DNA from: Occultella gossypii
GTDB taxonomy: Bacteria; Actinomycetota; Actinomycetes; Actinomycetales; Beutenbergiaceae
DNA: 64,000 nucleotides
Direction: 5' to 3'
Assembly (NCBI RefSeq): GCF_019947135.1
Contig: NZ_JAGSHT010000009.1
Span: forward strand, 1-64,000
Position 1 is the stretch's first letter; each line of letters opens with the position of its first letter. The position numbers were made by a program, and so were the translations under genes. This document shows, piece after piece, positions 16,656 through 32,596 of this stretch. The notes under the pieces were generated by a model. The model did no database searches. It was not told the origin of the DNA and saw nothing but the letters and a program-made list of their open reading frames with translations.

Positions 16656-16702
16656 CGGTGCGTGCCCGGACCAGGGCACGACGATCTACAGGGAGCCGGT
16701 CA

Positions 16703-18784
16703 GTGACGACCACGTCCACGCTCGAGCAGTACCAGGAGCCGACCACCCGCTGGTGGCACTCGCCGTTCCGGATGTTCCAGACCAACCTGCGCGAGACAGA
16801 CGTCACCTTCGACGTCGAGACCGTCCTCGATGCCATCGAGGACCACGGTGCCGACACCTGGCTCGTCAACGCGGGCGGCATCCTCTCCTTCTACCCCACC
16901 GATCTCGACTTCCAGACGCGCAACCCGCTGCTGGCCCGGCGGCCTGGTGGCGACCTGCTCGGGGATTGCCTCCGAGGCGCCCAGGACCGCGGGATCCGGC
17001 TCATGGCCCGGATGGACTTCTCCAAGATCGCGCCCCGGATCGCGGACCGCTTCCCGCACTGGTGCTTCCGGAGCGCGGACGGAGGGCGCCAGATCTATCA
17101 GGGACTGGTGAGCACGTGCCCGAGTGCCGGCTACTACCAGGACCGGGCTCTCGACGTGCTGGACGAGGTGCTCGGCCGCTACGACGTCGACGGCTTCTTC
17201 TGCAACTGGTTCGGTTTCAACGAGGTGGACTACGCGGGCACCTACCACGGCGTCTGTCACTGCGACGCGTGCGTGGCGGGCTTCGCGGCCTTCGCCGGCG
17301 GCGCGCGGCTGCCGGCGGGTCGCGATGACGCCGAGTACGGGCGCTGGCGGGCCTATGCCCGCGAGACGGTCGCGACCCTGACCGAGCGGATCCGCGAGCA
17401 CATCAAGTCCCGCCGGCCGGAGGCCGCACTGATCCTCGGCGACTCCAGCGACATCGTCTTCCACGAGGCGAACAACGCCGTCGGACGTCCGCTGTGGCCG
17501 TACGCGACGTCCGCCGCTGTGAGTGCCTCCCGCACCGCACACGAGCAGACCCCGGTCCTGGTGAACTCTGTCGCGTTCGTGGACATGCCCTACCGGATGG
17601 CCGCCGAGGAGCCCCATCACTTCGCCACCTACTTCGCCCAGACGATCGCGCGTGGTGGGACCCCGTCGACCTACATCATGGGCGTTCCCGGAGATATCCC
17701 CTACGCCGGGCTCCCCGCGGCCCGGGCCATCACCCGCTTCCATCGTGATCACCAGGACCTCTATGCCGGCATCCGTCCGATCGCTCCGCTCGCCCTGATC
17801 CGACCGCCGGCCGCCGGCCGGGAACCAGCCGATGCCGCCGCGGCGACGGAGGAGTTCCACGGCTGGTTCGACGCGCTCGCAGAGGTCCACCTGGCGGCCG
17901 ACGTGCTTGCCCTGGAGGAGGTCCCCCGGCTCGCCGTGGACGGTGCCCTGGCTCGGTTCGGTGTGCTCGTGCTCCCCGATGTCGGGCCCCTGACCCCCAG
18001 CGCCGCCCAGGTCCTGGACGCGTTCGTGGAAGCCGGCGGCACGCTCGTCGCCACCGGCTCGAGCGGCCTGCGCGACGGCCGGGTGCAGCTGGAGTCGATG
18101 CCGGCGACGGCGGAACTCGCCGTCGTCGGCGACGTCGAGTCCCTGAAGGGCACGTATGTCAGCGCGGGCCTGGAGTCCACCGCCGACAGCGGCGTCTACA
18201 CGGCTCCCACCGTGCCCATCCTCGGCGCCGGGCGCGCCATGGCCTGGCGTGCGGACATCGACCGCTGGCTGACCGTCATCGGGCCGGCCCCCTACGGGCC
18301 CCCGGAACTGGCCCACGGCCAGCGCGCCACCGACCAACCGGGCCTCGCGACCCGCTCCTACGGGGACGGCACCGCCACCTACCTGCCCTGGACCGCCGGT
18401 CGCACCTACGACCGGCTCGGCACCCGCGAGATCCGCGACGTGCTGCTGAGCGGCGTGCCGGGTGCGCGGACCGGTCCCGACGGCGATCCCTGGGGTTGCC
18501 TTCGCCTCTGGGCGCCCGAGCAGCTCGAACACACCGTGCACCGAACGGCCGACGGGCGCGTCGTCGTGCACCTGATCAACCACAGCGGGCTGCGCCGACG
18601 GTCCTACGGACCGCCGATCCCGATCACCGGCGTTCGGGTCACCCCACCGCGCGGGCTGCACATCGCCGCGGCGACGGCCCTCGTCGCCGGTCAGGACGTG
18701 CCCGTGACACCTGCCGGTGAGCTGCTCCTACCGGCCATCGAGACGTTCGACGTCATCACGATCACAACCAAGGAGAACAGTTGA
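16703..18784 (+). CDS. GHL6-like glycoside hydrolase with GH42-like C-terminal domains
   Basis: 693 residues, no signal peptide, so probably cytosolic. The N-terminal TIM barrel (about 1-340) resembles hypothetical glycosyl hydrolase family 6: FRMFQTNLRETD, DVDGFFCNWFGFNEVDY and a CHCDACVAGF cysteine cluster that may bind metal. Around residues 370-470 is a class-I-glutaminase-like fold as in the GH42 trimerisation domain (FGVLVLPDVGPLT, FVEAGGTLVATGSSGL). A beta-sandwich follows at the end (VVHLINHSG). GTG start 7 nt after GGGAG. First gene of the LacI-controlled operon; its stop overlaps the next start. It probably cleaves an imported oligosaccharide; the substrate is unknown. Confidence 0.7.
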   Translation: MTTTSTLEQYQEPTTRWWHSPFRMFQTNLRETDVTFDVETVLDAIEDHGADTWLVNAGGILSFYPTDLDFQTRNPLLARRPGGDLLGDCLRGAQDRGIRLMARMDFSKIAPRIADRFPHWCFRSADGGRQIYQGLVSTCPSAGYYQDRALDVLDEVLGRYDVDGFFCNWFGFNEVDYAGTYHGVCHCDACVAGFAAFAGGARLPAGRDDAEYGRWRAYARETVATLTERIREHIKSRRPEAALILGDSSDIVFHEANNAVGRPLWPYATSAAVSASRTAHEQTPVLVNSVAFVDMPYRMAAEEPHHFATYFAQTIARGGTPSTYIMGVPGDIPYAGLPAARAITRFHRDHQDLYAGIRPIAPLALIRPPAAGREPADAAAATEEFHGWFDALAEVHLAADVLALEEVPRLAVDGALARFGVLVLPDVGPLTPSAAQVLDAFVEAGGTLVATGSSGLRDGRVQLESMPATAELAVVGDVESLKGTYVSAGLESTADSGVYTAPTVPILGAGRAMAWRADIDRWLTVIGPAPYGPPELAHGQRATDQPGLATRSYGDGTATYLPWTAGRTYDRLGTREIRDVLLSGVPGARTGPDGDPWGCLRLWAPEQLEHTVHRTADGRVVVHLINHSGLRRRSYGPPIPITGVRVTPPRGLHIAAATALVAGQDVPVTPAGELLLPAIETFDVITITTKENS

Positions 18785-19731
18785 CCGAGCACATCGTCGC
18801 CTTCGGATCACTCGACAGCCAGGTACGCAGCCGCGCCGAGGCCCTGTTGGCCGGCCGCGGCGTCCTGGAGGTCCTGTCGAGTGCCTCCGCCGCGAGCCCG
18901 GACACGCTGGCACGTGCGACCGCGATCGCGGGAACCCTGCGACCGGGCCAGCTGACGGCCGCCGTGAACACCCGGTGGGTGCACAGTTGGGCCGCGGGAG
19001 CGAACGCCGACCTGTCGGAGGAGATGCTCGCCAGCGACGTGACCCTGACGAGCTCGACCGGCAACGGCGGGATCCCTCTCGCCGAGCACTCCATGCTGCT
19101 GATGCTGATGCTCAACCGGGACGTGCCACGCTGGCAGCGCGCCCAGGCCGAGCACCGCTGGGACCGGTTCACCCACGGTGAGCTCAACGGCCGCACGGTC
19201 GCGATCGTCGGGCTCGGCAACGCGGGTGCGGACCTCGCCGCGAAGGCGCAGGCCTTCCACATGCACGTGCTCGGCGTCCGCCGCAGGGTCGACCTCCCCG
19301 TGCCCGGCGTGGACGAGCTGTTCGCACCGGAACGGCTCCACGAGGTACTGGCACGGGCCGACTTCGTGGTGGTCACGGTGCCACTGACCGCCGACACCAG
19401 GGGCCTGTTCGACGAGACCGCCTTCCGGGCGATGCCCGCTCACGCCCACTTCATCTGCATCTCCCGGGGCGGGATCGCCGACGACACGGCACTCCTGAGG
19501 GCATTGCGGGAAGGCTGGATCGCCGGGGCCGGCCTGGACGCGCACGGCACCGAGCCACTCCCGCCGGAGAGTCCCTTCTGGGACCTCCCGAACGTCATCG
19601 TGACACCGCACAACGGAGCGACGACCGGGGCCACCGCTGCCCGCGGCGGGGAGATCTTCCTCGGCAATCTCGAGCGTTTCCTGGACGGCGTTCCGCTGGC
19701 GAACATCGTCGACAAGGCCGCCGGGTACTGA
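18781..19731 (+). CDS. D-2-hydroxyacid dehydrogenase family protein
   Basis: 316 residues. The Rossmann core has VAIVGLGNAGADLAAKA (about residues 140-156), followed by FVVVTVPLTADTRGLFDE and ISRGGIADDTALLRAL with the substrate Arg equivalent. The catalytic His lies in VIVTPHNGATTG. These enzymes interconvert 2-oxo acids and D-2-hydroxy acids with NAD(P). Rare TTG start, overlapping the preceding stop (TTGA), so translation is coupled to the GHL6-like protein. It could process a 2-keto or hydroxy-acid product of the sugar substrate (inference). Confidence 0.8.
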   Translation: MTEHIVAFGSLDSQVRSRAEALLAGRGVLEVLSSASAASPDTLARATAIAGTLRPGQLTAAVNTRWVHSWAAGANADLSEEMLASDVTLTSSTGNGGIPLAEHSMLLMLMLNRDVPRWQRAQAEHRWDRFTHGELNGRTVAIVGLGNAGADLAAKAQAFHMHVLGVRRRVDLPVPGVDELFAPERLHEVLARADFVVVTVPLTADTRGLFDETAFRAMPAHAHFICISRGGIADDTALLRALREGWIAGAGLDAHGTEPLPPESPFWDLPNVIVTPHNGATTGATAARGGEIFLGNLERFLDGVPLANIVDKAAGY

Positions 19732-19767
19732 CTCAAGGCCGTCACCGCTACGCCAAAGGAGGCGTTG

Positions 19768-20730
19768 ATGAGCGTGAACACCGCATCACCCCCAGGGACC
19801 ACCGTCGCCGTCCCCCCGACCGGCGACCTCCCCGAGCGGGGGCGCCGCCGGCGCAAACGGAGGTGGGCCGCCTGGCTGTTCCTGCTGCCTTGGCTGGTCG
19901 GGCTCTTCGGGATCACCCTCGGGCCGATGATCGCGTCGCTGTACCTGTCCTTCACCGACTACAACCTGCTCGGCCGGTTGTCGTTCGTCGGTTTCGACAA
20001 CTACGTCCGGATGTTCACCGACGACCCGCGCTTCGTCAGCGCGTGCCTGGTCACCCTGAAGTACGTACTCATCTCCGTACCGCTCCAACTGGCGTTCGCA
20101 CTGGCCCTCGCCACGCTGCTGAACCGGGGCCTGCGCGGCCTGGCGTTCTACCGCTCGGTCTACTACCTGCCCTCCCTGCTCGGCAGCAGCGTGGCGATCG
20201 CACTGCTCTGGCGTCAGATCTTCGGGGGCTCCGGGCTCGTCAACACGGCGCTCGGGGCACTTGGCCTGACCGACCTGCCGAACTGGATCGCCACCCCCGA
20301 ATGGGCGCTCGGCACCTTGATCGTGCTGAACGTCTGGACGTTCGGCTCTCCGATGATCATCTTCCTGGCCGGTCTGCGGCAGGTGCCGCAGGAGCTGTAC
20401 GACGCGGCCAGCGTCGACGGTGCGAACGCGTGGGGACGGTTCCGGCGAATCACCATGCCGATGCTCACACCGGTGATCTTCTTCAATCTGGTGCTGCAGA
20501 TGATCAATGCCTTCCAGGCATTCACGCAGTCCTACATCATCTCCGGCGGTTCCGGCGGTCCGGTCGACTCGACGCTCTTCTACACCTTGTACCTCTACCA
20601 GAAGGCGTTCACCGACTTCGACATGGGTTACGCCTCGGCGATGGCGTGGTTCCTGCTGGTCGTCATCGGCCTGTTCACCGGCGCAGCCTTCTTCACCTCC
20701 CGGTACTGGGTCCACTACGACGGGGAATGA
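19768..20730 (+). CDS. Sugar ABC transporter permease (MalF type)
   Basis: 320 residues with six predicted membrane helices after a basic N-terminal tail (RGRRRRKRRWAAWLFLLPWLVGLF). The EAA loop ELYDAASVDGANAWGRFRRITMP is the docking site for the ATPase. Carbohydrate uptake family 1. ATG at 19768 after a strong AAAGGAGG; the TTG one codon earlier is less likely. Its permease partner and binding protein follow. Confidence 0.9.
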   Translation: MSVNTASPPGTTVAVPPTGDLPERGRRRRKRRWAAWLFLLPWLVGLFGITLGPMIASLYLSFTDYNLLGRLSFVGFDNYVRMFTDDPRFVSACLVTLKYVLISVPLQLAFALALATLLNRGLRGLAFYRSVYYLPSLLGSSVAIALLWRQIFGGSGLVNTALGALGLTDLPNWIATPEWALGTLIVLNVWTFGSPMIIFLAGLRQVPQELYDAASVDGANAWGRFRRITMPMLTPVIFFNLVLQMINAFQAFTQSYIISGGSGGPVDSTLFYTLYLYQKAFTDFDMGYASAMAWFLLVVIGLFTGAAFFTSRYWVHYDGE

Positions 20731-20731
20731 C

Positions 20732-21616
20732 ATGACTTCGACCGCAACGCAACCCGCCGCTGTGCACGCCCCGGCCCTGAGGCCGCAACGTCGCCCGTGG
20801 CGTCGGATCGTCCTCCACGGCATCGTCCTGCTCGGGGGCATCGCCATGGTCTACCCGCTCCTGTGGATGGTGGCGAGCGCCTTCAAACCGGAGTCCGACA
20901 TCTTCTCCGACCCCGGACTCCTGCCTGCGACGTTCACGACCGAGAACTTCACGCAGGGCTGGGACGCGCTCGGCATCCCGTTCTCGACGTTCTTCCTGAA
21001 CTCATTCGTCATCGCGGCGATCTCGGTGCTCGGGAACCTCCTGTCCTGCTCACTGGCCGCCTACGCGTTCGCGCGGCTCGACTTCCGGTTCAAGAAGACG
21101 CTCTTCGCCGCCATGCTCGCCACGCTGATGCTGCCGTTCCACGTCACCCTCGTGCCCCAGTACATCCTCTTCCAGTCGATCGACTGGACGAACACGTACT
21201 TCCCGCTCGTGGTGCCGAAGTTCCTCGCGGTCGACGCGTTCTTCATCTTCCTCATGGTCCAGTTCATGCGGGGCCTGCCGAGGACCCTCGACGACGCCGC
21301 GACGGTGGACGGCTGCGGCCCGTTCGGAGTGTTCTGGCGGATCATCCTGCCCCTGATGCGACCCGCCCTCGCGGTTGCTGCGATCTTCACCTTCATCTGG
21401 ACCTGGAACGACTTCCTCGGGCCGCTGTTGTACATCTCCGACCGTGAGCTCTACACGGCCCCGATCGCCCTGAACGCGTTCCTGGACTCGACCGGAGCCT
21501 CCTCGTGGGGCCCGATGTTCGCGATGTCGATCTTGTCGATCCTGCCGCTCTTCCTGGTCTTCCTGTTCGCCCAGAAGCACCTGATCAACGGCATCGCCAC
21601 CACCGGGCTGAAGTAG
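20732..21616 (+). CDS. Sugar ABC transporter permease (MalG type)
   Basis: 294 residues, six membrane helices. YPLLWMVASAFKPESDIF is the usual MalG-type entry, and TLDDAATVDGCGPFGVFWRI is the EAA loop. Its ATG lies 1 nt after the stop of the previous permease. The two form the membrane channel; no ATPase gene is in the operon, so a shared MsiK-type ATPase is expected. Confidence 0.9.
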   Translation: MTSTATQPAAVHAPALRPQRRPWRRIVLHGIVLLGGIAMVYPLLWMVASAFKPESDIFSDPGLLPATFTTENFTQGWDALGIPFSTFFLNSFVIAAISVLGNLLSCSLAAYAFARLDFRFKKTLFAAMLATLMLPFHVTLVPQYILFQSIDWTNTYFPLVVPKFLAVDAFFIFLMVQFMRGLPRTLDDAATVDGCGPFGVFWRIILPLMRPALAVAAIFTFIWTWNDFLGPLLYISDRELYTAPIALNAFLDSTGASSWGPMFAMSILSILPLFLVFLFAQKHLINGIATTGLK

Positions 21617-21661
21617 CCGGCCCGGCCCACCACCAGCAATGACGCTCCTGAAGGGAATCCC

Positions 21662-22990
21662 ATGTTGAACCCGTTGAACCCGAACCCACCACTGTCCCGT
21701 CGCTCCTTCCTCGGCACCGCTGCAGCCGGCGCTCTCCTGACCACCGCCGGCTGCGCCGGATTCGGCGGCGGTGGTTCCGGGTCGGAGTCCGACGGCGACG
21801 CGAGCCTCACCGTGACCTGGTGGGGCGACGCGAGCCGGACCGAGCTCTATGACGCCGCGCTCGCGTTGTTCGAAGCCGACCATGAGGGCGTCACGACCCG
21901 ATCCGAGTTCGCCGATCTCGGTCCCTACCTGGAGCGGATGGCGACCGCCGCCGCGGCCGGGAACCTCGCGGACGTCCTGTGGATGCGGGACACGCACGTC
22001 GGCCGCTATGGCGCCGGCGGCTCACTGCTCGACCTCTCCGAGTACCTCGACGACGTGATCGACGTCAGCGCGATCGGTGACGCCGGCATCGCCAGCGGGA
22101 CGGTCGGCGACGGCGTGTTCGCGCTGCCGACGCACTACGTCGGCCAAGCGCTCATCACAGCAGAGGACGTACTGGGCGCAGCCGGCGTCTCGGGTGGCGA
22201 CATCGCGACCTGGGACGACCTCGCTGCTGCTGCCCGCGAGGCGGCAGACCCCTCCGCCGGCGTCTTCGGGATCAACGACCCCACGCTCGACGACACGCAC
22301 CGGCACCTGGAGGCGTGGATCCGGCAGGCCGGCGGGGAGCTGTTCACCCCCGAAGGCACCCTCGCGGCCGACCCGGCCGCGATCGAGGAATGGTTCGTCT
22401 TCTGGAAGACGCTCCGGGACGAGGGGGTGCTGCCTCCGGCCGACTCCCAGAGCGAGGCCAACGGTGCCGGCTGGTCCGGCGACTTCCTGGTCCTCGGGAC
22501 CTCCGCGATGCGGCTGTCCAGCACGAACCACTTCACGATCGTCTCGGGTCTCACCGAGGCGCCGCTCGGGCTGTTCAGTACCCCCGCCCTCGCCGACGCC
22601 ACCGACGACTGGTGGTTCTTCCCGCCGATCCTGATCAGCGCCGCGGCCAACACCGACTCGCCCGAGGTCGCCGCCGCGCTCATCGACTTCTTCATCAACG
22701 ACGCTGCTGCGGCCGATGTCACCCGGCTCAACCAGGGCGCACCGTCCTCGTCCGAGATCCGTGACGGGCTCACTCCCGACCTCGAAGGGGCGGAGACCGC
22801 CTTCATCGAACAGATCTCGCGGGAGATGGAGCAACCGGCCCGACCGTTCCCCATCCGGCCCGAGGGCTCCGAGCAGTTCAACGGCGCCCTCACCAGGATC
22901 GGTGAGGAGATCGCCTATGGCGGGGCCACGGTCAGCGAGGCGGTCGCCCGCCTCGTCTCCGACGCCGCCGGCTACCTCACGGCGGAGTGA
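21662..22990 (+). CDS. Sugar ABC transporter substrate-binding lipoprotein
   Basis: 442 residues. The N-terminus has a twin-arginine motif (SRRSFLG) and a lipobox-like LTTAGC (Cys about residue 30), so it is probably Tat-exported and lipid-anchored. The mature part is an extracellular solute-binding protein family 1 fold (LTVTWWGDASRTELYDAALALFE, LADVLWMRDTHVGRYG). It captures the sugar for the two upstream permeases. Unusually it is encoded after the permeases rather than first. Confidence 0.9.
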   Translation: MLNPLNPNPPLSRRSFLGTAAAGALLTTAGCAGFGGGGSGSESDGDASLTVTWWGDASRTELYDAALALFEADHEGVTTRSEFADLGPYLERMATAAAAGNLADVLWMRDTHVGRYGAGGSLLDLSEYLDDVIDVSAIGDAGIASGTVGDGVFALPTHYVGQALITAEDVLGAAGVSGGDIATWDDLAAAAREAADPSAGVFGINDPTLDDTHRHLEAWIRQAGGELFTPEGTLAADPAAIEEWFVFWKTLRDEGVLPPADSQSEANGAGWSGDFLVLGTSAMRLSSTNHFTIVSGLTEAPLGLFSTPALADATDDWWFFPPILISAAANTDSPEVAAALIDFFINDAAAADVTRLNQGAPSSSEIRDGLTPDLEGAETAFIEQISREMEQPARPFPIRPEGSEQFNGALTRIGEEIAYGGATVSEAVARLVSDAAGYLTAE

Positions 22991-22997
22991 GGCGACC

Positions 22998-23429
22998 ATG
23001 ACCGAGTGCACCCTCTGCGCCGGGAACGCCCGAGCGGAGTCCGAGTTGCCACCCCGGGAACGGGTTCGGATGACCGAGAACTGGCGGGTGATCGCCCACC
23101 GCAGCGCGCTCCCGGGCTGGATGCTCGTCGTTCCCCGGAGGCACGTCGAATCGCTGGCAGACCTGACGGAGCTCGAAGCGGCCGAACTCGGCACGCTGCT
23201 GCGTGCGGGGACGCGGACGCTCGTGGACGCCGTGGGTGCGGACCGCTCCTACGTGATGCAGTTCTCCGAGGGCATCCGGCACCTGCACTTCAGCCTGGTG
23301 CCGCGGATGGCGGATCTGCCGGCCGACCGGCGCGGCGCGAAGGTCGGCGCCTACAACGCGCAGGACACCCCACTGGGCGAGGAGGAGCGCGACCAGATCG
23401 CGCTCAGCCTGCAGTCGCGGTGGCCGTAG
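22998..23429 (+). CDS. HIT-family protein with HxHxS motif
   Basis: 143 residues, starting 7 nt after the binding-protein stop, so it belongs to the ABC operon. CTLC at the N-terminus is the zinc-knuckle half often seen in this family, and RHLHFSLVPR near residue 96 is the HIT loop. The canonical triad is HxHxH; here the third His is Ser, while the central nucleophilic His is kept. HIT proteins hydrolyse or transfer nucleotidyl groups (GalT, Ap4A hydrolase). In a sugar operon, a role in sugar-nucleotide turnover is possible but unproven. The 3' end overlaps the convergent lacI gene by 26 bp. Confidence 0.8.
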   Translation: MTECTLCAGNARAESELPPRERVRMTENWRVIAHRSALPGWMLVVPRRHVESLADLTELEAAELGTLLRAGTRTLVDAVGADRSYVMQFSEGIRHLHFSLVPRMADLPADRRGAKVGAYNAQDTPLGEEERDQIALSLQSRWP

Positions 23430-24498
23430 CCGCCTCACGTGGGGGTGCGGTCGAGGCCCGGATCACGAGCTCCGGGTCGACGACCTCCTCATCCGACGCC
23501 TCGACCGTCACTCCCATCAGGCCCAGGAGCGCGCGGGCAGCCGCCCGACCGCGCTGGGACACATCCCGCCGGACCGTCGTGAGCGCGGGCGAGTACCACG
23601 CGCCGATGTCGGTGCCGTTGTACCCGACCACGGAGACGTCCTCGGGGATCCGCAGACCGTGTTCGCGCAGGGTCGCCATCCCCGCGATCGCCATCTCGTC
23701 GGTCGCATAGACGATCGCGGTGATCTCCGGGTGCTGTGCGAGGATCGCCCGCGTGCGTTCGGCCGCCGTGACCGGTGTGTACGGCCCTGGGCGATGTGCC
23801 ACGAGACCGGCACCACCGGCCGCAAGGACCTCGCGGAGGATCCGGTCCCGGTGGCTCGACTCGACGTAGTCCTCCGGCCCGCTCACCGCGGCGATCGACC
23901 GATGGCCCAGTTCGAGGAGGTGTTCGGCCACCTCGCGCATCCCGGCGCCTCGTGGGCCGTGGCCGATGTAGGAGATCGGATCGTCGACCCACGGGGTCCC
24001 GAGGAGCACGGCGGGCAGCCCGAGCCGACGAACCAGTTCGAACCGGGTGTCACCCACCCGTGATTCCAGGAGCACGACTCCATCGACCCGACGGGCCTCG
24101 GCCAGCCGCCGGTAGGTCTGTTCCTCGTGCTCCACGGAGGTGGCGATGTGCAGCAGCAGCCCGAAGTCGTGCCTGGCGAGCACCTTCTCGAGACCGGTGA
24201 ACATCCCGGACGGCAGTTCGGGATCGCCGTCCTCGGCGACGCCCGGACGGTTCAGCACCAGCCCCACGGTGCGGGACCTGGCTGACCGCAACGCGATCGC
24301 CGTGGCGCTCGGAGTCCAGTGCAGCTTGCGCGCAGCATCCCGGATCCGCTCCTCGGTGGCAGCGGAGATACCGCCCTGGGCGTTGAACACCCGGGAGACG
24401 GCCGAGCGCGACACTCCCGCCAGTTGGGCGACGTCGGTGATCGTCGCCCGGCGCGAGCGGGTTGCGTCGGCATCGCTACTAGATCGATCCATTCCCAT
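23404..24498 (-). CDS. LacI-family transcriptional regulator
   Basis: 364 residues. The HTH is TITDVAQLAGVSRSAVSRVFN (about 19-39), followed by the hinge helix region and a periplasmic-binding-protein-like effector domain (VGLVLNRPG through VVGYNGTDIGAW and TTVRRDVSQRG). It should repress the adjacent GHL6/ABC operon until a sugar effector binds. Start is the ATG at 24498 or the one at 24492. The codons just after it contain ACTAGATCGATC, matching the operators at 16571 and 16638, so it probably represses itself too. Confidence 0.9.
   Translation of the reverse strand: MGMDRSSSDADATRSRRATITDVAQLAGVSRSAVSRVFNAQGGISAATEERIRDAARKLHWTPSATAIALRSARSRTVGLVLNRPGVAEDGDPELPSGMFTGLEKVLARHDFGLLLHIATSVEHEEQTYRRLAEARRVDGVVLLESRVGDTRFELVRRLGLPAVLLGTPWVDDPISYIGHGPRGAGMREVAEHLLELGHRSIAAVSGPEDYVESSHRDRILREVLAAGGAGLVAHRPGPYTPVTAAERTRAILAQHPEITAIVYATDEMAIAGMATLREHGLRIPEDVSVVGYNGTDIGAWYSPALTTVRRDVSQRGRAAARALLGLMGVTVEASDEEVVDPELVIRASTAPPREAATATATAG
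24478..24493. promoter_or_regulatory. LacI operator-like site over lacI start codons
   Basis: ACTAGATCGATCCATT matches the operator palindrome ACTAGATCGATCTAGT at 14 of 16 positions. It lies across codons 2-7 of the regulator gene, where binding would block initiation or early elongation (autoregulation). Confidence 0.6.
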
Positions 24499-24591: not shown

Positions 24592-26124
24592 TCAGACCCC
24601 GCCGGCAGTAACCTCCGCCGACGTGATCTGACCGGCAGCGACGACGAGGACCGTCGCCCCTGCCCCGGTGGCGCCGTCCTCGACCACCCGCAGCCGGTAC
24701 CGGCCCGGGGCAAGGTCCACGGCGGCGAACCACCCGGACCCGTCCGTGGTCACCGTGAACGACTCCCCCGGTGTGCGGCCCAGCGGCTGGACCTGCACGT
24801 CGACCTGGTCGGCGACCACGCCGGTCCGCAGCGTGACCGTGCCCTCGAGCACGCCGGCGGTGGGCTGGGTCTTCCACTCCATCTCGGGCACCACCACGTC
24901 ATCAGCGAGCGGCCCGGCCCGAAGTGCCGCGGTCACCGCCTCCCGTTCGGCGTCCTTGACCGCCGGGTTCGAGGACGCCGTCGCCGTGGCGCTGAAGTTC
25001 GCGTAGGAGTATCCACTCCAGCCATCGAACCCGGCGGCCACCGTCTCCTCCGCCTGGGCGACGATGTCCGGCAGCTCGTTCAGGTAGAGCGCCGGCCCGT
25101 TGACCACGTGCCGGTCGGCACGGCTGGCGATGAGTGCATCGTTCCACTCCGTGAACATCTGCGCCTGGGCCGGCATCCAGTTGCGCTTGTAGTTCATCGC
25201 CGTGATCGTGTCGATGATGCCCTCGTCCAGCCAGCTCACCCAGTCCTGGAGCACGTTCGTGTACGGGCGGGTGTTCTCCCAGCCGCCGTAACTGACCGGG
25301 CCGAACGCGTACGTGATGCCGTTGATGCTGAGCCGGTCACTCGGATCGGAGCCGTACATCGCCACATAGATCTTGCGCACCAGCGCGGAGACCTGGTCGC
25401 GACGCCACTGGCTGAACTCCTCGTCGGTGACGGCCGGACGGTCCGTGCGGCCGGTCTCGGCGGCGAACCGGGCCAGAGATGTCTCGGAGTAGCCCCAGTC
25501 GTTCTGGAACTCGCCGGAGTTGTAGTCCGGATAGCGGATGTAGTCGAGGTTCACCCCGTCCACGTCATAGTTCTCCGTGATCGACGTGATCGCCTCGACG
25601 ACGTAGTCGACGGCAGCCGGGTTGGCCGGGTCGATGTAGGAGTTGTTGCCGACGAGTTCGGTGCCGTCCTCACGCTGGTTGAGCCAGCGATCCGCACCGG
25701 TCGCGGTGGGCCCGTGCGCGTTGAATGCGTGCTCGGGCGAGGTCGGCGGGGTGGCCGAGTTCCACAGCGTGGTGGCGTTCACCCACGCGTGCACCTCGAT
25801 CCCGGCCGCGTGCGCCACCTCGATGACCTCGGCCAGCGGGTCGTAGGGCGCCGGGTCGACGCGCGCGTCGGTGCGCGGGTAGAGCGCGTCGTTGCAGAAG
25901 CAGTCGAACCGCCGACCGATCTGCACGATCAGGGCGTTGACGCCCAGGTCGCTCGCGTCCTCGACCAAGGTGGTGACTTGGTCGGGCGTGTAGATGCCGA
26001 CGTTGAACGCGTCGACCCAGAGTGCGCGGAACTGCTCCTCGGGTTCGTCGGCTGCGGCCGGTCCGGCCAGCGCCAGGGCCGGCACCAGCGCCAGGCCGAG
26101 TACTGCTGCGAGTGATCGTCGCAT
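24592..26124 (-). CDS. Secreted GHL10-family glycoside hydrolase (DigH/YngK-like)
   Basis: 510 residues. A signal peptide (MRRSLAAVLGLALVPALALAG, cleavage near AAA-DEP) is followed by a GHL10/DUF187 barrel: FRALWVDAFNVG, GVNALIVQIGRR, YDPLAEVIEVAHAAGIEVHAWVN, ENYDVDGVNLDYIRYP and TAMNYKRNW. A C-terminal Ig-like/carboxypeptidase-regulatory-type domain (VTTDGSGWFAAVDLAPGRYRLRV) ends the protein. E. coli DigH, of the same family, hydrolyses denuded peptidoglycan glycan. Start ATG at 26124 after GGAGGG. It lies 40 nt after the RpiR gene in the AnmK-MurQ operon, which fits digestion of peptidoglycan outside the cell. Confidence 0.85.
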   Translation of the reverse strand: MRRSLAAVLGLALVPALALAGPAAADEPEEQFRALWVDAFNVGIYTPDQVTTLVEDASDLGVNALIVQIGRRFDCFCNDALYPRTDARVDPAPYDPLAEVIEVAHAAGIEVHAWVNATTLWNSATPPTSPEHAFNAHGPTATGADRWLNQREDGTELVGNNSYIDPANPAAVDYVVEAITSITENYDVDGVNLDYIRYPDYNSGEFQNDWGYSETSLARFAAETGRTDRPAVTDEEFSQWRRDQVSALVRKIYVAMYGSDPSDRLSINGITYAFGPVSYGGWENTRPYTNVLQDWVSWLDEGIIDTITAMNYKRNWMPAQAQMFTEWNDALIASRADRHVVNGPALYLNELPDIVAQAEETVAAGFDGWSGYSYANFSATATASSNPAVKDAEREAVTAALRAGPLADDVVVPEMEWKTQPTAGVLEGTVTLRTGVVADQVDVQVQPLGRTPGESFTVTTDGSGWFAAVDLAPGRYRLRVVEDGATGAGATVLVVAAGQITSAEVTAGGV

Positions 26125-26164
26125 GTTTCCCTCCATGTACGAGATTCGTCGTGATCGTCGATGA

Positions 26165-27058
26165 TCAGATCCCGCTGGGACCGGATCGGGTCCGGGTGTA
26201 CCTCCTGTCCTCGACAGCGGCGCGGGTGACCTCGAGCGCCGCTTGACTGGCGTCGTAGGTGCGCTGGGCGATCGCCACGAAGACGCAGTCCACGACGGTG
26301 AGCTGAGCCAGGCGGCTCGCGGTCGCCCCCGACCGGAACGTGGTCTCCCGCGCGGCGGTGAGCAGCACGTGATCGGCGAGCCGTGCGATCGGCGACTCGG
26401 GGGCGTTCGTCAGAGCCACCGTGGTGGCACCGCGGGTCCCGGCGAGCCGCAGTGCCTCGACGGTGTCGATGGTGGTCCCGGTGTGGGAGATCCCGACCGC
26501 GACGTCCCGCGCCCCGAGCAGCGCGGCCGACGTGAGAGCGAGGTGCGAATCGGCGTGCGCGAACGCGACCCGCCCGATCCGGTGCAGCTTCTGCTGCAGG
26601 TCCGTTGCGACAGTGCCGGAGGCGCCGACCCCGTAGATGTCCACCCGGCCCGCGGTCGCGATGGCTTCCACCACCGCCTCGAGTTCCGGGACGGAGAGGG
26701 AACGGGCGGTGTCCTCCACGGCGCGGGCGTCCGCATAGGCGATCTTCGCGATCACGCTGGCCAGATCGTCACCCTCGGCGATGTCCCCGGTACGCAGCTC
26801 GCGCTCGGCGGCGGCATCGCTGCGGCCCGTCTCGGCCGCGAGGGCGAGCCGGAACTCCCGGTACCCGGCCAGGCCGAGCTCGTGACACAGCCGCATCACC
26901 GTGGTCTGGCTGACGCCGCTCGCCGCGGACAGGTCGGTGATGGTGGTCCGGGCGGCCCGGTGCGGATCCTCGAGCACGTACTCGGCCACTCGGCGCATGG
27001 ACGGCTGGAACTGGTCCAGCCCGCCGCGCAGCCGCAGCACCAGCGGGGGGCGGGTCAT
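26165..27058 (-). CDS. RpiR/MurR-family transcriptional regulator
   Basis: 297 residues. The N-terminal HTH_6 domain (about 1-77; LSAASGVSQTTVMRLCHELGLAGYREF) is followed by a SIS sugar-phosphate-binding domain (about 120-250; VDIYGVGASGTVATDLQQKLHRIG). MurR in E. coli senses MurNAc-6-phosphate; the overlap of this gene with murQ (ATGA, 4 nt) makes the same ligand likely here. The expected target is the promoter upstream of the binding-protein gene at 32347. Confidence 0.88.
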   Translation of the reverse strand: MTRPPLVLRLRGGLDQFQPSMRRVAEYVLEDPHRAARTTITDLSAASGVSQTTVMRLCHELGLAGYREFRLALAAETGRSDAAAERELRTGDIAEGDDLASVIAKIAYADARAVEDTARSLSVPELEAVVEAIATAGRVDIYGVGASGTVATDLQQKLHRIGRVAFAHADSHLALTSAALLGARDVAVGISHTGTTIDTVEALRLAGTRGATTVALTNAPESPIARLADHVLLTAARETTFRSGATASRLAQLTVVDCVFVAIAQRTYDASQAALEVTRAAVEDRRYTRTRSGPSGI

Positions 27059-28017
27059 TCGTGGTGCCCTCCCCTGGCCGCGGCGACGGCGGAGCGCACG
27101 CCACCTGGATCGGCGATGCGGGTGACGTCGGGCGGGTACTGGGCAATCAGTTCACGGGCCTGTGCCACATCGATCCCGGCGATCAGGGCCACCAGGGCGG
27201 TGCGGGCGTCCCCGGCCGCGGCCAGCACGTCCGCACACCGCTCGGGGTCCTGGTCCGTGGCCTGCACCAGCATCCGCACGGTGCGCGCCCGCAGCTTCTG
27301 GTTCGTGGGCGCCACCTCGGTCATCAGGTTCGAGTACGTCTTGCCGAGGCGGACCATCACCGCCGTCGAGAACATGTTCAGGACCATCTTCTGGGCGGTG
27401 CCCGCCTTCATCCGGGTGGAGCCGGTGATCACCTCCGGCCCGGTGTCGACGAGGACAGCCACGTCCACACCCTCGGCCAGGGTGGCGCGGGGGTTCGTGG
27501 CGATCAGGGCGGTCCGGGCCCCCTGCTCCCGCGCGCTGGCGAGGGCGCCGCCCACGTACGGCGTGCGTCCGCTGGCAGCGATCCCGATCACCATGTCCGC
27601 CGGGCCGACGACGCCCAGGTCCGCGGCGCCCGCGGCCGGGTCATCCTCCACACCCTCCACCGCCTGCATCATGGCCCGATCACCGCCGGCCAGGTGTGCC
27701 ACCACCGTCTCCGCGCCGACCCGGTAGGTGGGCATCAGCTCGACGGCGTCGAGCACGCCGAGCCGCCCGGAGGTCCCGGCGCCGCTGTAGTGCACCCGCC
27801 CGCCCGCGCCCAGGGCGGCCACCGCGAGGTCGACCAGGGCGGCCACCTGGTCGGCGACCGCTCCCACCGCCGTCAGGACCGCCGCGTCCTCCTCCATCAT
27901 CAGGCTCACCAGTTCGTCGGTGGGCAGCCGATCGAGGTCCTCGGTGCGGGGGTTGCGCTCCTCCGTGGGTGAGTGCAACCCCAGCACCTCGCGCCAGTCG
28001 TGGGACATCTCGGCCAT
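27055..28017 (-). CDS. murQ: N-acetylmuramic acid 6-phosphate etherase
   Basis: 320 residues, a SIS-domain lyase that removes D-lactate from MurNAc-6-P to give GlcNAc-6-P. GRVHYSGAGTSGRLGVLDAVE contains the first catalytic Glu, and MQAVEGVEDDPAAG carries the second. ITGSTRMKAGTAQKMVLNM is the conserved C-terminal block. The ATG at 28017 is chosen because GAGGAAGG sits at proper distance; the ATG at 28023 would abut that site. Overlaps the regulator gene and starts 2 nt after anmK, so the operon is tightly coupled. Confidence 0.93.
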   Translation of the reverse strand: MAEMSHDWREVLGLHSPTEERNPRTEDLDRLPTDELVSLMMEEDAAVLTAVGAVADQVAALVDLAVAALGAGGRVHYSGAGTSGRLGVLDAVELMPTYRVGAETVVAHLAGGDRAMMQAVEGVEDDPAAGAADLGVVGPADMVIGIAASGRTPYVGGALASAREQGARTALIATNPRATLAEGVDVAVLVDTGPEVITGSTRMKAGTAQKMVLNMFSTAVMVRLGKTYSNLMTEVAPTNQKLRARTVRMLVQATDQDPERCADVLAAAGDARTALVALIAGIDVAQARELIAQYPPDVTRIADPGGVRSAVAAARGGHHE

Positions 28018-28019
28018 GG

Positions 28020-29225
28020 TCATCCTTCCTCGAGTACAAGCGTGTGCACCGGGTCGCGTCCGGGTGGACACGGCGCTGGCGCGGGTGGGGTCAACGAGCC
28101 CAGCACGACGGCGGACCTCGCCCCGGTTGCCCGCCGGCGGCCCGCGCCTGGGGCCGTGCCGGGCAACCCACGAGCCGACAGGTAGCCGAGCAACGCGAAC
28201 AGGTAGGCCTCCTTCGCCTCGGCGGCCAGCCCGAGCGCGTCGGAGGTGACCACGCCCGGTAGCCGTGAGCGTAGTCCGGCCATCAGCGTGGCATTGCGCA
28301 CGCCGCCGCCGGACACCACGACGCGTTCGGTGCGGGCGCCGTCACGAATGATCGCCTCGGCGATGGTCCGGGCGGTGAGCTCGGTGAGCGTGGCGAACAG
28401 GTCGTTGCCACTGGGCACGGCCACCCCGGCGGCGCCCAGTGCAGCGGTGACATAGCCGCCGTCGAAGGTCTCCCGTCCGGTGCTCTTCGGCAACGGCCGG
28501 GCGTAGTACGGATCCGCGAGCAGCACGGCCAGGGCCTGCGGGTCCACGCGACCCGCCGCGGCGAGCGCTCCGTCGGCGTCGAACCTACGCCCGGTGCCGG
28601 CCGCGACCGCGTCGTCCAGGAGGCAGTTGCCAGGCCCGGTGTCGCCGGTCCGCACCGGCCCGTCGCCCACCAGCGTGATGTTCGCGATACCGCCGATGTT
28701 CAGCGCCGCCGTGGGCCGGTCGCCGAGCCAGAGCGCGTCCAGCAGGCTCACCAGCGGGGCACCCTGACCACCGGCGGCGATATCGGCGCTGCGCAGGTCA
28801 TGGATCACGGGCCGCCCGGTGCGCGCCGCGATCCACGCCGCCGAGCCCAGTTGCAACGTGCCCCGCGCCGAGCCGGCGTCATCGCTCACGCCACCACCGC
28901 CGTCGGGTGTGCCCTGTTCCACCCAGTGGTGCACCGTCTGGCCGTGGCTGACCACCAGGTCCACGGCGCCCCACGCCTCGATCGCCCAAGCGCCCGCGTC
29001 TCCGAAGGACTGCCCGATCTCGGTGTCCAACCGGCACACCTCACCCAGGTCGGTGGCCGCCGGCGGCAGCGCAGCCAGGATCCGCCCGCGCAGCGGCGCG
29101 GGCCAGGTCCGCTCCGTGTGCGCCACCATCCGCATCCGGACCACGCCCTCGGCATCGTCGAGATCGGCCAGGGCCACGTCGATGGCGTCGACCGAGGTGC
29201 CCGAACTCAGCGCGAGGACCCTCAT
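28020..29225 (-). CDS. anmK: Anhydro-N-acetylmuramic acid kinase
   Basis: 401 residues. It phosphorylates and ring-opens 1,6-anhydroMurNAc with ATP to MurNAc-6-P, the MurQ substrate. LALSSGTSVDAIDVAL is the N-terminal ATP/phosphate motif, DLVVSHGQTVHHW and TAALNIGGIANITLV follow, and DTGPGNCLLDDAV has the catalytic Asp. The C-terminal about 30 residues are Pro/Arg-rich and beyond the usual family end. The start overlaps the permease stop (ATGA), which fixes the ATG at 29225. Confidence 0.92.
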   Translation of the reverse strand: MRVLALSSGTSVDAIDVALADLDDAEGVVRMRMVAHTERTWPAPLRGRILAALPPAATDLGEVCRLDTEIGQSFGDAGAWAIEAWGAVDLVVSHGQTVHHWVEQGTPDGGGGVSDDAGSARGTLQLGSAAWIAARTGRPVIHDLRSADIAAGGQGAPLVSLLDALWLGDRPTAALNIGGIANITLVGDGPVRTGDTGPGNCLLDDAVAAGTGRRFDADGALAAAGRVDPQALAVLLADPYYARPLPKSTGRETFDGGYVTAALGAAGVAVPSGNDLFATLTELTARTIAEAIIRDGARTERVVVSGGGVRNATLMAGLRSRLPGVVTSDALGLAAEAKEAYLFALLGYLSARGLPGTAPGAGRRRATGARSAVVLGSLTPPAPAPCPPGRDPVHTLVLEEG

Positions 29226-30058
29226 CCCTTCACCGCCCCCGCCGTCAGACCGGATGCGAGGCGCCGCTGGACGACCACGAAGAAGATCACCACGGGCACC
29301 GTGATCAGCGAGGAGGCGGCCATCACCGCCCCCCAGTCCGCGGTGTTCTGGCCGAAGAACCGCTGCAGGCCCACGGCCACCGTGTACTTGTCCGCATCCT
29401 GCAGGAACGTGAGCGCGAAGATGAACTCGTTCCATGCGGTGATGAACGAGAACACGCTGGTCGCCACCACGCCGGGAGCCACCAGCGGCAGCAGTACCGC
29501 CCAGAACATCCGGCCCCAGGATGCACCGTCCATATAGGCGGCCTCCTCGACCTCCTTCGGCACCGCGGCCACGAAGCCACGGAGCATCCAGACCGCGAAC
29601 GGCAGCGAGAAGGCGAGGTAGACGATCACCAGGCCGAGGAGACTGTTCAGCATCTGCAGGTTCTTCGCCTGCAGGAACAACGGGATGACCAGCGCCTCGA
29701 GCGGAACCATCTGCACGATCAGGATCAGCACCAGCACCGCCTTGCGGAACGTGAACGCGAAGCGTGCCACCGCCACCGCGGCGAGCAGTGCCACGGCAGC
29801 GGAGATGAGCACGGTACCCACCGCGACGATCGCCGAGTTCCGCATGAACTGGCCGAACCCGCCGACGTCCAGGACCCGGACGAAGTGGTCCAGGGTCAGA
29901 TCGGTGGGGATCAGGGTGGCGCCGCGGTGCGCCGCGTCCACATCGACCGCGCTGGAGAACATCCAGTACGCGGGGAAGAGCGCGAACGCGAGGATCGCGG
30001 CCACCCCGAGCGACTTGCCGAGGGCCGGCCACGCCAGTGCCGAACCGGTCCGCCTCAC
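29222..30058 (-). CDS. ABC transporter permease (MalG type), MurNAc operon
   Basis: 278 residues, six membrane helices; PKEVEEAAYMDGASWGRMFWAVLLP is the EAA loop. It overlaps both neighbours by 4 nt. Partner of the permease encoded upstream. By operon content it should import MurNAc, anhydroMurNAc or a GlcNAc-containing disaccharide; the sugar is inferred, not read from the permease itself. Confidence 0.88.
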   Translation of the reverse strand: MRRTGSALAWPALGKSLGVAAILAFALFPAYWMFSSAVDVDAAHRGATLIPTDLTLDHFVRVLDVGGFGQFMRNSAIVAVGTVLISAAVALLAAVAVARFAFTFRKAVLVLILIVQMVPLEALVIPLFLQAKNLQMLNSLLGLVIVYLAFSLPFAVWMLRGFVAAVPKEVEEAAYMDGASWGRMFWAVLLPLVAPGVVATSVFSFITAWNEFIFALTFLQDADKYTVAVGLQRFFGQNTADWGAVMAASSLITVPVVIFFVVVQRRLASGLTAGAVKG

Positions 30059-31023
30059 AGGTCCTCCTCCCTGAACAGCGTGCGCATGTACACCACCGTG
30101 ATGACGAGCAGGATCCCGGTGAGCAGCACCGCGATGGCCGAGCCCATGCCGTACTTGCCCTGCGCGAAGGACTGGATGTAGGACCAGACACCCAGGTTGA
30201 ACACCTCGGCGTTGCCGCCGTTGCCGCCCGGCATCAGGTAGATCTGGGTGAACACCTTGAAGTCCCAGATCGTGGAGAGGATCGTCACCACGGCGAAGAC
30301 CGGCTTGAGCATCGGCGCGGTGATCTGCCAGAACCGTCGCCAGGCGCCGGCGCCGTCCATGGTGGCCGCCTCATAGAGTTCCTTCGGCACGGTGAGCAGG
30401 CCGGCGAGCACGGTGATCGCCACGAACGGGAAACCGTGGTGGACCACGTTCAGGGTGGCGATGGCGTAGAAGCCGAGCCGGTCCGTGTACCAGTTCACGG
30501 TGCCGGGCTCGATGATGCCGAGCCCGGCCAGCACGCTCGCCACCAGCCCGTTCAGCGGGTCGAACAGCCAGATCCAGACGTAGGTGCCGGTGACAGCGGG
30601 CACCGCCCAGGCGACCATGATCGCCGTCGAGCAGACCGTCTTCCAGAACGTGCCGAGGATGTTCAGGAACAGGGCCACAAGCGTGCCGAGTCCCACGGTC
30701 AGCACCACACAGCAGGCGGCGAAGCCCACCGTGTTCGGCAGCACGACCGTCCACAGGTAGGAGTCACCGAGGATCGCCGCGTAGTTCTCCCAGCCGATGT
30801 AGTTCGCCTCTCCGGAGACCAGCTCACGCAGGCCGAAGTCCTGGAAGGACAGATCCACCACGCGCACCAGCGGCCACAGCAGCAGCACTGCCAGCACGGC
30901 CAGGGTCGGTGCGAGCAGCACCCACGGGCGCACGGCCCGGCGCCGGGCGGCTCGGCGCCGACGCGCGTCCGGGGCCGGCCCGCGTGGCACGATCGGTGCC
31001 ACGCGGGCCGTGGACGTGGTCAC
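30055..31023 (-). CDS. ABC transporter permease (MalF type), MurNAc operon
   Basis: 322 residues. An Arg-rich cytosolic tail (ARRRRAARRRAVRPW) precedes six helices; the EAA loop is ELYEAATMDGAGAWRRFWQITAP. It begins 1 nt after the binding-protein stop. No ATP-binding subunit is encoded in the operon. Confidence 0.88.
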   Translation of the reverse strand: MTTSTARVAPIVPRGPAPDARRRRAARRRAVRPWVLLAPTLAVLAVLLLWPLVRVVDLSFQDFGLRELVSGEANYIGWENYAAILGDSYLWTVVLPNTVGFAACCVVLTVGLGTLVALFLNILGTFWKTVCSTAIMVAWAVPAVTGTYVWIWLFDPLNGLVASVLAGLGIIEPGTVNWYTDRLGFYAIATLNVVHHGFPFVAITVLAGLLTVPKELYEAATMDGAGAWRRFWQITAPMLKPVFAVVTILSTIWDFKVFTQIYLMPGGNGGNAEVFNLGVWSYIQSFAQGKYGMGSAIAVLLTGILLVITVVYMRTLFREEDL

Positions 31024-31024
31024 C

Positions 31025-32347
31025 TCAGGACCCGGCGCTGAACGTCTCGTTCATGGCGGTGACCGCCTCCGCGGCCGCCTCCTCGACACCCATCCGCCCG
31101 GTCAGGATGTTCTGGACCATGGCCTCGACGGTCTTCGCGCCCTGGATCTGACCGAAGGCCGGCGTCAGCGGCACCGACCTACCCGCCTCCAGCATCTGCT
31201 GGGCGAACGGGGCGACCAGCGGGTCCTCGCTCTCGGCGATCTCCGCCAGGGCGCTCGCCTGGCCCGGGAAGAAGCCGGTCTGCTCGGACCAGTCGGCGGC
31301 GGACTGACCGGTGCTCATCAGCTCGATGAACTCCCAACCGAGATCCTGTTGATCGGAATCGGCCCACACCCCGAGGTGCGAGCCGCCGAGGAACGAGCCG
31401 GCCGGCCCGCCGTCACGCGACGGGATCGGGAACGCGCCGATGCTCTCCATCAGATCCGGGGCGTCCTGCGCGATCCTCCCCACGGTCCAGTTGCCGGCGA
31501 TGATCATCCCGACGTTGCCCTGCTCGAACGCGGCGAGCGCGTCCGCCTCGTTCCAGGTGTCCGCGGCCGCGGTCGAGGCCCCGTGCTCGAGTGCGAGGCC
31601 GGTGTAGTACTCCAGCCCTTCGATCGACTCCGGGGAGTCGAGGGTTGCGGTCCAGGTACCGTCGGACTCGGTGGCGATCTCTCCCCCGGCGCCCCAGATG
31701 AACGGGTACGCGCTGTACTGGGAGTCCCCCGGGATCGGGAACGGGATCACGTTCGGGTCGGAGGCCTTGAGTGCCTCCACCGCCGCAGTCAGCTCCTCCC
31801 AGTTCGTGGGCGTCTCGGTGATGCCCGCCGCCTCGAACAGATCCCGGTTGTAGATGATCGAGCGCACCCCGGCGTACCAGGGCATGCCGTAGAGCGCGCC
31901 GTCGTAGGTGCCCGCCTCGGCGAGTCCCTCGACGAGATCGCCGTCGAGGCCGGCCCCCTCGATGCTGGCCGTCAGGTCCGCGAGCACACCGAGCTCGGCG
32001 AACTCGGCGGTCCAGGTGGTGCCCACCTCGGCGACGTCCGGACCGGTGCCGCCTGCGATCGAGGTGACGAACTTGTCATGGGCGCCGTCCCAGGGCTGGA
32101 ACTGCACGTCCAGCTCGGCTCCGGTCCGGGCCGTGAACTCCTCCGCCACACCGTCGAAATAGCCGCTGGCATCCGGGTTGGTGCCTTCCATGATCCAGAC
32201 GGTGAGCGTCTGTCCCTCGAAGCCACCGCCCTCCTCGGCGCCACTGCCGGCGTCCGTCGGCTCGTCTCCGGTGTCGCCGCCACTGCTGCACGCCGCCAGC
32301 GCCAGAACCAGGGCGCCAGCCGTCAATGCGGGAATCGATCTCTTCAT
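31025..32347 (-). CDS. ABC substrate-binding lipoprotein, MurNAc operon
   Basis: 440 residues. Signal peptide with lipobox LALAACSS (Cys about residue 20), then a Gly/Asp/Glu linker and a family 1 solute-binding fold (LTVWIMEGTNPDASGYFDGVAEEF). ATG at 32347 with GAGGGAG upstream; the longer open frame is not protein-like. First main gene of the operon, preceded by a short ORF whose stop is 5 nt from this ATG. Proposed ligand is a muropeptide-derived sugar, inferred from AnmK/MurQ. Confidence 0.88.
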   Translation of the reverse strand: MKRSIPALTAGALVLALAACSSGGDTGDEPTDAGSGAEEGGGFEGQTLTVWIMEGTNPDASGYFDGVAEEFTARTGAELDVQFQPWDGAHDKFVTSIAGGTGPDVAEVGTTWTAEFAELGVLADLTASIEGAGLDGDLVEGLAEAGTYDGALYGMPWYAGVRSIIYNRDLFEAAGITETPTNWEELTAAVEALKASDPNVIPFPIPGDSQYSAYPFIWGAGGEIATESDGTWTATLDSPESIEGLEYYTGLALEHGASTAAADTWNEADALAAFEQGNVGMIIAGNWTVGRIAQDAPDLMESIGAFPIPSRDGGPAGSFLGGSHLGVWADSDQQDLGWEFIELMSTGQSAADWSEQTGFFPGQASALAEIAESEDPLVAPFAQQMLEAGRSVPLTPAFGQIQGAKTVEAMVQNILTGRMGVEEAAAEAVTAMNETFSAGS

Positions 32348-32352
32348 GCCGA

Positions 32353-32427
32353 TTACTCCCTCGCGTCCGGCTGTCGTCCCCCGCCGGTCCAGGGTGGTGC
32401 GTCGGCCTCGTCGCCGACATCCGTCAT
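32353..32427 (-). CDS. Possible 24-residue leader ORF
   Basis: An ATG at 32427 follows GGAAG at 8 nt and opens 24 codons (begins MTDVGDEADAPPW, ends GGRQPDARE) to a TAA 5 nt before the binding-protein ATG. The ribosome binding site of that gene lies inside this ORF, so translation could be coupled. Acidic, hydrophilic, no membrane segment. No relative recognised; it may also be chance. Confidence 0.35.
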   Translation of the reverse strand: MTDVGDEADAPPWTGGGRQPDARE

Positions 32428-32596
32428 GGTGATTTCTTCCTAGATCCCCTGCTTGTCGGGAAACTATCATCATCTCGGCCAGGGCAACAGGGCCGGGCGA
32501 GCACCGGCACGTCGTGGCTGGAGGCGTGCCTCGGCGACCCGGCTCGGTCGACGTCGACCAGCCGGGACGAATGGCGATGACCGGCACGTCGATCGA

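Follow-up and report, generated by a model that had tools for sequence, protein, structure and literature searches.

The window considered here, a 64,000-nucleotide (nt) stretch of the Occultella gossypii genome, carries on its minus strand a seven-gene operon (24592-32347) that probably imports and degrades a peptidoglycan sugar bearing 1,6-anhydro-N-acetylmuramic acid (anhydroMurNAc). The genes encode, in order, a solute-binding protein (SBP), two permeases (permease 1 and permease 2), the anhydroMurNAc kinase AnmK, the N-acetylmuramic acid 6-phosphate (MurNAc-6-P) etherase MurQ, an RpiR/MurR-type regulator and a secreted GHL10 protein. The genes and their order, already given in the initial annotation, are confirmed by open reading frame (ORF) and profile calls. 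The initial annotation had also drawn attention to GHL10 being linked with AnmK, MurQ and an ATP-binding cassette (ABC) importer; a comparison of gene neighbourhoods finds this linkage kept in relatives, and it is conserved and recurrent.

The SBP gene (31025-32347) encodes a lipoprotein of a CUT1-type sugar ABC importer, with an SBP_bac_1 match of 168.1 bits and a lipobox-like LAAC signal read by eye. Permease 1 (30055-31023) is assigned from its BPD_transp_1 domain and the neighbourhoods of its relatives, and permease 2 (29222-30058) from BPD_transp_1, so that the operon holds the set by which a CUT1 importer is recognized (i.e. an SBP_bac_1 protein and two BPD_transp_1 permeases). AnmK (28020-29225) matches PF03702 with 319.3 bits and NF007146 with 458.2 bits (cut-off 440), and has no other strong copy in the genome, where two further matches reach ∼21 bits. 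MurQ (27055-28023) scores 360.4 bits against NF003915 (cut-off 168) and 301.5 bits against the equivalog model TIGR00274, 0.5 bits under the cut-off of 302. The regulator (26165-27058) contains HTH_6 and SIS domains and reaches the cut-off of none of the NCBIfam models listed (110.8 versus 408 bits for the Escherichia coli-type MurR model NF012026). The GHL10 gene (24592-26124, alternative start at 26136) belongs to what we call subfamily A; its product matches PF02638 with 105.6 bits (gathering score 27.9) and has a Sec-type signal, likewise read by eye, and a C-terminal CarboxypepD_reg domain. All seven genes lie on the minus strand. Upstream of GHL10 the junctions are one 1-nt spacing followed by four 4-nt overlaps, while the gap between the regulator and GHL10 measures 28 nt to the first ATG and 40 nt to the ATG at 26124, just upstream of which sits GGAGGG; the 40-nt gap first reported fits this latter start. 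The operon had been drawn to 32427, a position that turns out to be the ATG of a short ORF in a different frame; the SBP gene starts at 32347.

All seven genes are kept in the same order and on the same strand in 4/4 genomes of the genus and in the sister genus (G004), where a NagZ-type GH3 gene is inserted between permease 2 and AnmK. From this kept order, the seven-gene arrangement is more than chance. A search with the GHL10 protein across 99 genomes, O. gossypii included, gave matches in 14. In seven of these, namely the five genomes with the whole operon and G086 and G052, identity is ≥60% over nearly the full length. Another genome (G006) contains a set consisting of MurQ, MurR, AnmK, a NagZ-type GH3 gene, permease 2, permease 1 and SBP, with a divergent GHL10 gene adjoining SBP; its SBP orthologue, 51% identical, lies beside MurQ and AnmK. 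The name NagZ is an assignment made in this analysis for GH3 proteins that exceed the PF00933 cut-off.

We then compared gene co-occurrence on a broader scale. In an order-level sample of 297 genomes (AnmK kept at ≥100 bits and GHL10 at ≥90 bits, weaker rows being dropped), AnmK occurs in 76 genomes, GHL10 in 32 and both in 28 (Fisher P 5.5e-15), and the two genes lie within 10 kb of each other in 11/28 genomes, from 7/14 genera and four families, against an expectation of 0.15 (genus-level Poisson P 2.9e-10); since all our co-occurrence tests take related genomes or genera as independent, their significance is overstated, to the detriment of our reading. MurQ (TIGR00274 search) is found in 31/32 GHL10 genomes versus 79/265 others. 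Same-strand clusters that include the importer are present in genomes G000-G004 (G000 being O. gossypii), G006, G186 and G220, and in G261 GHL10 and the importer are divergent from AnmK and MurQ. A phylum-level sample of 396 genomes, searched at E 1e-20, contains GHL10 in 40, AnmK in 17 and both in 11 (P 2.3e-8), with the two within 10 kb in 5/11 genomes (expected 0.06). Two of these close pairs (G000 and G059) are shared with the order-level sample; the three new ones (G369, G391 and G422) are outside the class. G369 and G422 (the latter on a contig of 8.6 kb) contain a GntR-like regulator, SBP, permease 1, a subfamily-A-type GHL10 and AnmK. In G391, a GntR-like regulator and AnmK accompany a GHL10 of subfamily B, SBP and permease 1, and MurQ lies at a greater distance. 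The GntR-like type was assigned by reading the sequences rather than with a profile, and the profile used for permease 2 did not detect it in these three genomes. In all three, the importer, AnmK and GHL10 stay together, and the regulator and MurQ vary.

The importer was also followed in its own right. An alignment scan of named genomes with permease 1 gave 546 relatives, of which the best 80 were examined, their neighbours being scored with custom profiles built from the window proteins and their relatives. NagZ or AnmK is present in 50/80 loci (NagZ in 47, AnmK in 30, MurQ in 23 and MurR in 30), and GHL10 in 10/50 of these versus 0/30 of the others. The ten GHL10 loci belong to Occultella (two), Helcobacillus, Serinicoccus (four), Nocardioides, a Nocardioidaceae metagenome-assembled genome (MAG) and a Nesterenkonia MAG, the last with a fragment at a contig end. 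When the loci are restricted to those flanked by ≥8 kb in each direction, 41/62 contain NagZ or AnmK, 27 contain AnmK, and GHL10 occurs in 8/41. A NagA-like gene in 3/4 Serinicoccus loci and in the Nocardioides locus (L087: 225.4 bits versus 225.65) would extend the pathway to glucosamine-6-phosphate.

Several observations pull the other way. AnmK and GHL10 are not close in 17/28 order-level genomes that hold both, and GHL10 is absent from 40/50 of the NagZ/AnmK loci of the importer. In G150, AnmK and GHL10 are adjacent and convergent, and the 19.5 kb read contains no importer. AnmK and GHL10 of G059 are separated by two other genes, and the importer close to them resembles that of the window only weakly. 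Two close GHL10 relatives, G086 (68%) and G052 (60%), have none of the other operon genes in the 19 kb read. The NagZ-type GH3 proteins reach 164-171 bits versus a cut-off of 207 for the NCBIfam beta-N-acetylhexosaminidase equivalog. Moreover, 20/50 NagZ/AnmK loci have no AnmK within reach (14/41 of those with ≥8 kb on both sides); therefore, the importer may carry a non-anhydro sugar too, and this speaks for a disaccharide substrate generally and against a strictly anhydro one. Finally, the 30 loci with neither NagZ nor AnmK comprise 22 from Streptomyces, four from Nocardiopsis and four others (two on 4-5 kb contigs), and the Streptomyces and Nocardiopsis permeases (26/30 such loci) are 60-73% alike. 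The transporter substrate in these loci may differ from that in the window.

From gene content, order, recurrence, co-occurrence and family membership, we infer the following substrates, import step, GHL10 chemistry and regulator ligand. The secreted GHL10 protein would cut bare glycan, most likely leaving or releasing units of N-acetylglucosamine (GlcNAc) and anhydroMurNAc; the SBP and the two permeases would take up the freed sugar, probably as a disaccharide; NagZ would split it; AnmK would yield MurNAc-6-P, which MurQ would convert to GlcNAc-6-P and D-lactate; and the RpiR/MurR-type regulator probably senses MurNAc-6-P. The pathway is not self-contained, as had been suggested, because neither NagZ nor NagA nor an ATPase is among the seven operon proteins. 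The importer ATPase would have to come from a gene outside the operon (the rest of the genome was not searched for one), and NagZ presumably from the NagZ-type gene at a second locus, the corresponding gene being within the operon in relatives.

This second locus (contig C35 of G000, ∼286-299 kb) consists of a PF00144 serine hydrolase, a second MurQ, a NagZ-type GH3, a dipeptide-type ABC importer, named by sequence reading, and a NamZ-family gene (namZ is also called ybbC). Its MurQ (G000:C35:287439-288281) is 47% identical to that of the operon, and these are the two strong MurQ matches in the genome. The serine hydrolase has PBP4B as its best NCBIfam match, at 90.5 bits under a cut-off of 385. 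Loci L140 and L148 cover this region (G000:C35:280000-312000). The second of the two NamZ-family genes in the genome is on contig C15, with a GH3 gene ∼1 kb away, and NagA-like matches occur on two other contigs, each with an internal stop as read. The genome seems to divide its use of muramic acid between an anhydro route in the window and a hydrolytic or muropeptide route on C35.

We then focused on the GHL10 enzymes, a domain described as widely distributed (PMC6016235). Sequence searches gave a single GHL10 relative with a solved structure, Clostridioides difficile Cwp19 (5oq2; phmmer E 3.1e-13). Like the window protein, Cwp19 is secreted and has a GHL10 domain; it cuts peptidoglycan and its products carry anhydroMurNAc (PMC6016235, PMC5765458), being described as a lytic transglycosylase that makes 1,6-anhydromuropeptides and some reducing-end products too (PMC6016235). 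Unlike the window protein, Cwp19 has Arg132, Asp196 and CWB2 anchors (PMC6016235, PMC5765458). In the paper on its structure, a catalytic role is proposed for Asp196, and perhaps for Arg132, and is called conjecture (PMC5765458). At these two columns the window GHL10 has Thr123 and Tyr199, within the subfamily motifs NATT and LDYIRYP, with the neighbouring Asp (D198) kept. The same pattern recurs in G369, and in the G422 protein, which is more distant, the corresponding motifs are VTPI and LDRVRYP. By contrast, E. coli DigH and six aligned rows of subfamilies B and C keep both residues (NPYR or NPFR, and FDDYFY; NPYR and FDDYFY in DigH). Loss of the Arg132 and Asp196 equivalents leaves catalysis by subfamily A unproven, and this counts against a glycan-cutting role for the window protein.

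The labels A, B and C were coined here for GHL10 subfamilies. In a tree of 35 GHL10 domains (17 linked to AnmK and 18 free), subfamily A stands apart from B, C and DigH, and three subfamilies are linked to AnmK. The linked or free label changes five times, at least three of these changes being forced by well-supported branches; this shows recurrence, not frequency, because some linked rows entered through the importer search. Structure prediction for the window GHL10 with six relatives gave no usable model (mean predicted local distance difference test score 38.6).

The window GHL10 had first been likened to DigH. Both are GHL10 relatives, and DigH acts on bare glycan (PMC12288456). The two proteins are 24% identical over 271 aligned columns. 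Judging from the aligned sequences, DigH appears a doubtful model for a subfamily that lacks the two proposed Cwp19 catalytic residues, and the likeness does not extend to the Arg and Asp that DigH shares with subfamilies B and C. Cwp19 fits AnmK better than DigH does, because it makes anhydroMurNAc ends. An alternative, which we consider possible if somewhat unlikely, is that GHL10 is a plain DigH-like hydrolase that trims glycan, anhydroMurNAc ends being supplied by other lytic transglycosylases and the remaining pathway being unchanged. DigH hydrolyses denuded glycan and can reportedly set anhydro-capped ends free (PMC12288456), and AnmK requires the anhydro end alone, not its maker. However, Cwp19, which comes from a Gram-positive, acts as a lytic transglycosylase, with some reducing-end products seen as well (PMC6016235). 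Since the window GHL10 is without the signature residues common to DigH and Cwp19, neither precedent transfers cleanly.

The nature of the imported sugar bears on a second alternative, namely that the importer carries free N-acetylmuramic acid (MurNAc) or GlcNAc-MurNAc from muramidases or NamZ, and that AnmK serves internal recycling. The loci without AnmK within reach (20/50) and the two NamZ-family genes, one of them at the second MurQ locus, are in keeping with it. Yet neither a MurNAc kinase nor a phosphotransferase system (PTS) is among the seven operon proteins, and both NamZ genes are at loci other than the operon; in particular, the PTS transporter MurP is absent from the operon, whose transport genes are ABC permeases. 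In addition, in 2/3 of the other-class loci AnmK stands with the importer and GHL10, and MurQ is not in the stretch read (L154, and L155 with only 8.6 kb); the third (L153) has MurQ nearby. We regard this alternative as unlikely. The MurNAc pathway of the initial annotation accordingly stands in part: AnmK, MurQ and their linkage to the importer hold up, and free MurNAc becomes the less likely substrate because a MurNAc kinase and a PTS are lacking among the operon proteins and AnmK points to anhydroMurNAc.

It is more improbable still that subfamily A cuts a non-peptidoglycan glycan, or is a dead glycan binder, and that GHL10 is a passenger in the operon. Its altered active-site motif would fit such a role, as would the starch activity reported for Deinococcus DogH in a paper where GHL10 is mentioned (PMC9967864). 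This is at odds with AnmK having neighbours from at least three GHL10 subfamilies in separate lineages, and with the AnmK linkage, outside the class, of a subfamily-A protein 62% identical to that of the window (L154). That the operon imports another amino sugar, for example chitobiose, and that AnmK and MurQ are mere bystanders, is very unlikely: the SBP has a weak match to the chitobiose/GlcNAc-binding NgcE model TIGR03851 and 30/80 permease 1 relatives have neither NagZ nor AnmK nearby, but that match (52.1 bits) is far under the cut-off of 399.65 and 50/80 relatives stand beside NagZ or AnmK.

Some importer loci show further features. In L069, L074, L076 and other Streptomyces loci, close permease relatives lie downstream of glutamate synthase subunit-like genes (by sequence reading), again with neither NagZ nor AnmK. 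A Serinicoccus locus (L099:4260-6182) encodes MurQ fused in a single chain to an N-terminal BadF/N-acetylglucosamine-kinase-like domain, and L086 has a protein of similar length and start, as read from the sequence. In Microbacterium (L122:15749-17485) and eight other loci, genes for a family-5 (peptide-type) binding protein and for permease-like proteins come after the NagZ-MurR end; the Microbacterium arrangement suggests combined import of sugar and muropeptide.

Upstream of the SBP gene, alignment of upstream regions reveals a possible promoter or operator, GATGATGATAGTTTCCC (32458-32474, minus strand), in which the four aligned same-genus regions show no difference. No second copy is present in the genome at ≤1 mismatch, nor at the second MurQ locus at ≤3 mismatches, and therefore no regulon is inferred. 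A search for inverted repeats upstream of SBP gave short repeats only, of doubtful meaning. On the other side of the operon, a downstream LacI gene (23404-24498) was considered as a member and rejected: it adjoins GHL10 in G001 and G002, and is absent from the G003 and G004 stretches read. A separate plus-strand cluster (16658-22990) encodes a second CUT1 importer, a 2-hydroxyacid dehydrogenase and a large protein that matches GHL10 weakly (16937-17425, 19.2 bits); it is kept in G001 and G002, and was not seen in the G003 stretch read.

Among known systems, Agrobacterium YejBEF-YepA is a peptide-type ABC system, unlike the CUT1 sugar type. It resembles the operon in placing an ABC importer for peptidoglycan fragments where AmpG would stand, and differs in being described as a muropeptide importer (PMC9790009). 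The Bacillus subtilis murQRP-amiE-nagZ-ybbC cluster shares with the operon MurQ, a MurR-type regulator, a NagZ partner and extracellular degradation beside import and catabolism; unlike the operon, it uses the PTS transporter MurP and an extracellular NagZ, and has no GHL10 or ABC importer as described (PMC5061867). A profile search did not find AnmK in the B. subtilis control genome. In E. coli, murQ-murP-yfeW with murR, and recycling through AmpG, NagZ and AnmK, lead likewise from AnmK and then MurQ to GlcNAc-6-P, whereas import is by AmpG or MurP (PMC5061867). Moreover, DigH is encoded there apart from the mur genes, between yddY and gadC. The parts of the operon are known families, and both the AnmK-MurQ pairing and ABC import of muropeptides are already known (PMC5061867, PMC9790009). 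For a CUT1 importer of MurNAc sugars and for a GHL10-AnmK partnership, we found no prior description among the open-access papers listed, judged by their titles and the starts of their abstracts.

Streptomyces coelicolor is described as recycling MurNAc via MurQ without MurP (PMC5061867), and a 2026 mycobacterial preprint refers to an unknown transporter (PMC13041923). The importer described here is a candidate for the system by which actinobacteria take up MurNAc. More tentatively, several GHL10 subfamilies of Actinomycetota, one with a rebuilt active site, could turn bare glycan into GlcNAc-anhydroMurNAc for a dedicated CUT1 importer, separate from AmpG, MurP and YejBEF, which might be the missing MurNAc importer of many actinobacteria.

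In brief, the operon names a candidate importer, a likely substrate and a cleaving enzyme for the import of muramic-acid sugars in actinobacteria. GHL10, a family for which we found little biochemistry, gains in AnmK a recurrent genomic partner, which argues for an anhydro sugar as the GHL10 product in the AnmK-linked setting, and subfamily A is flagged as a group whose active site needs re-examination.

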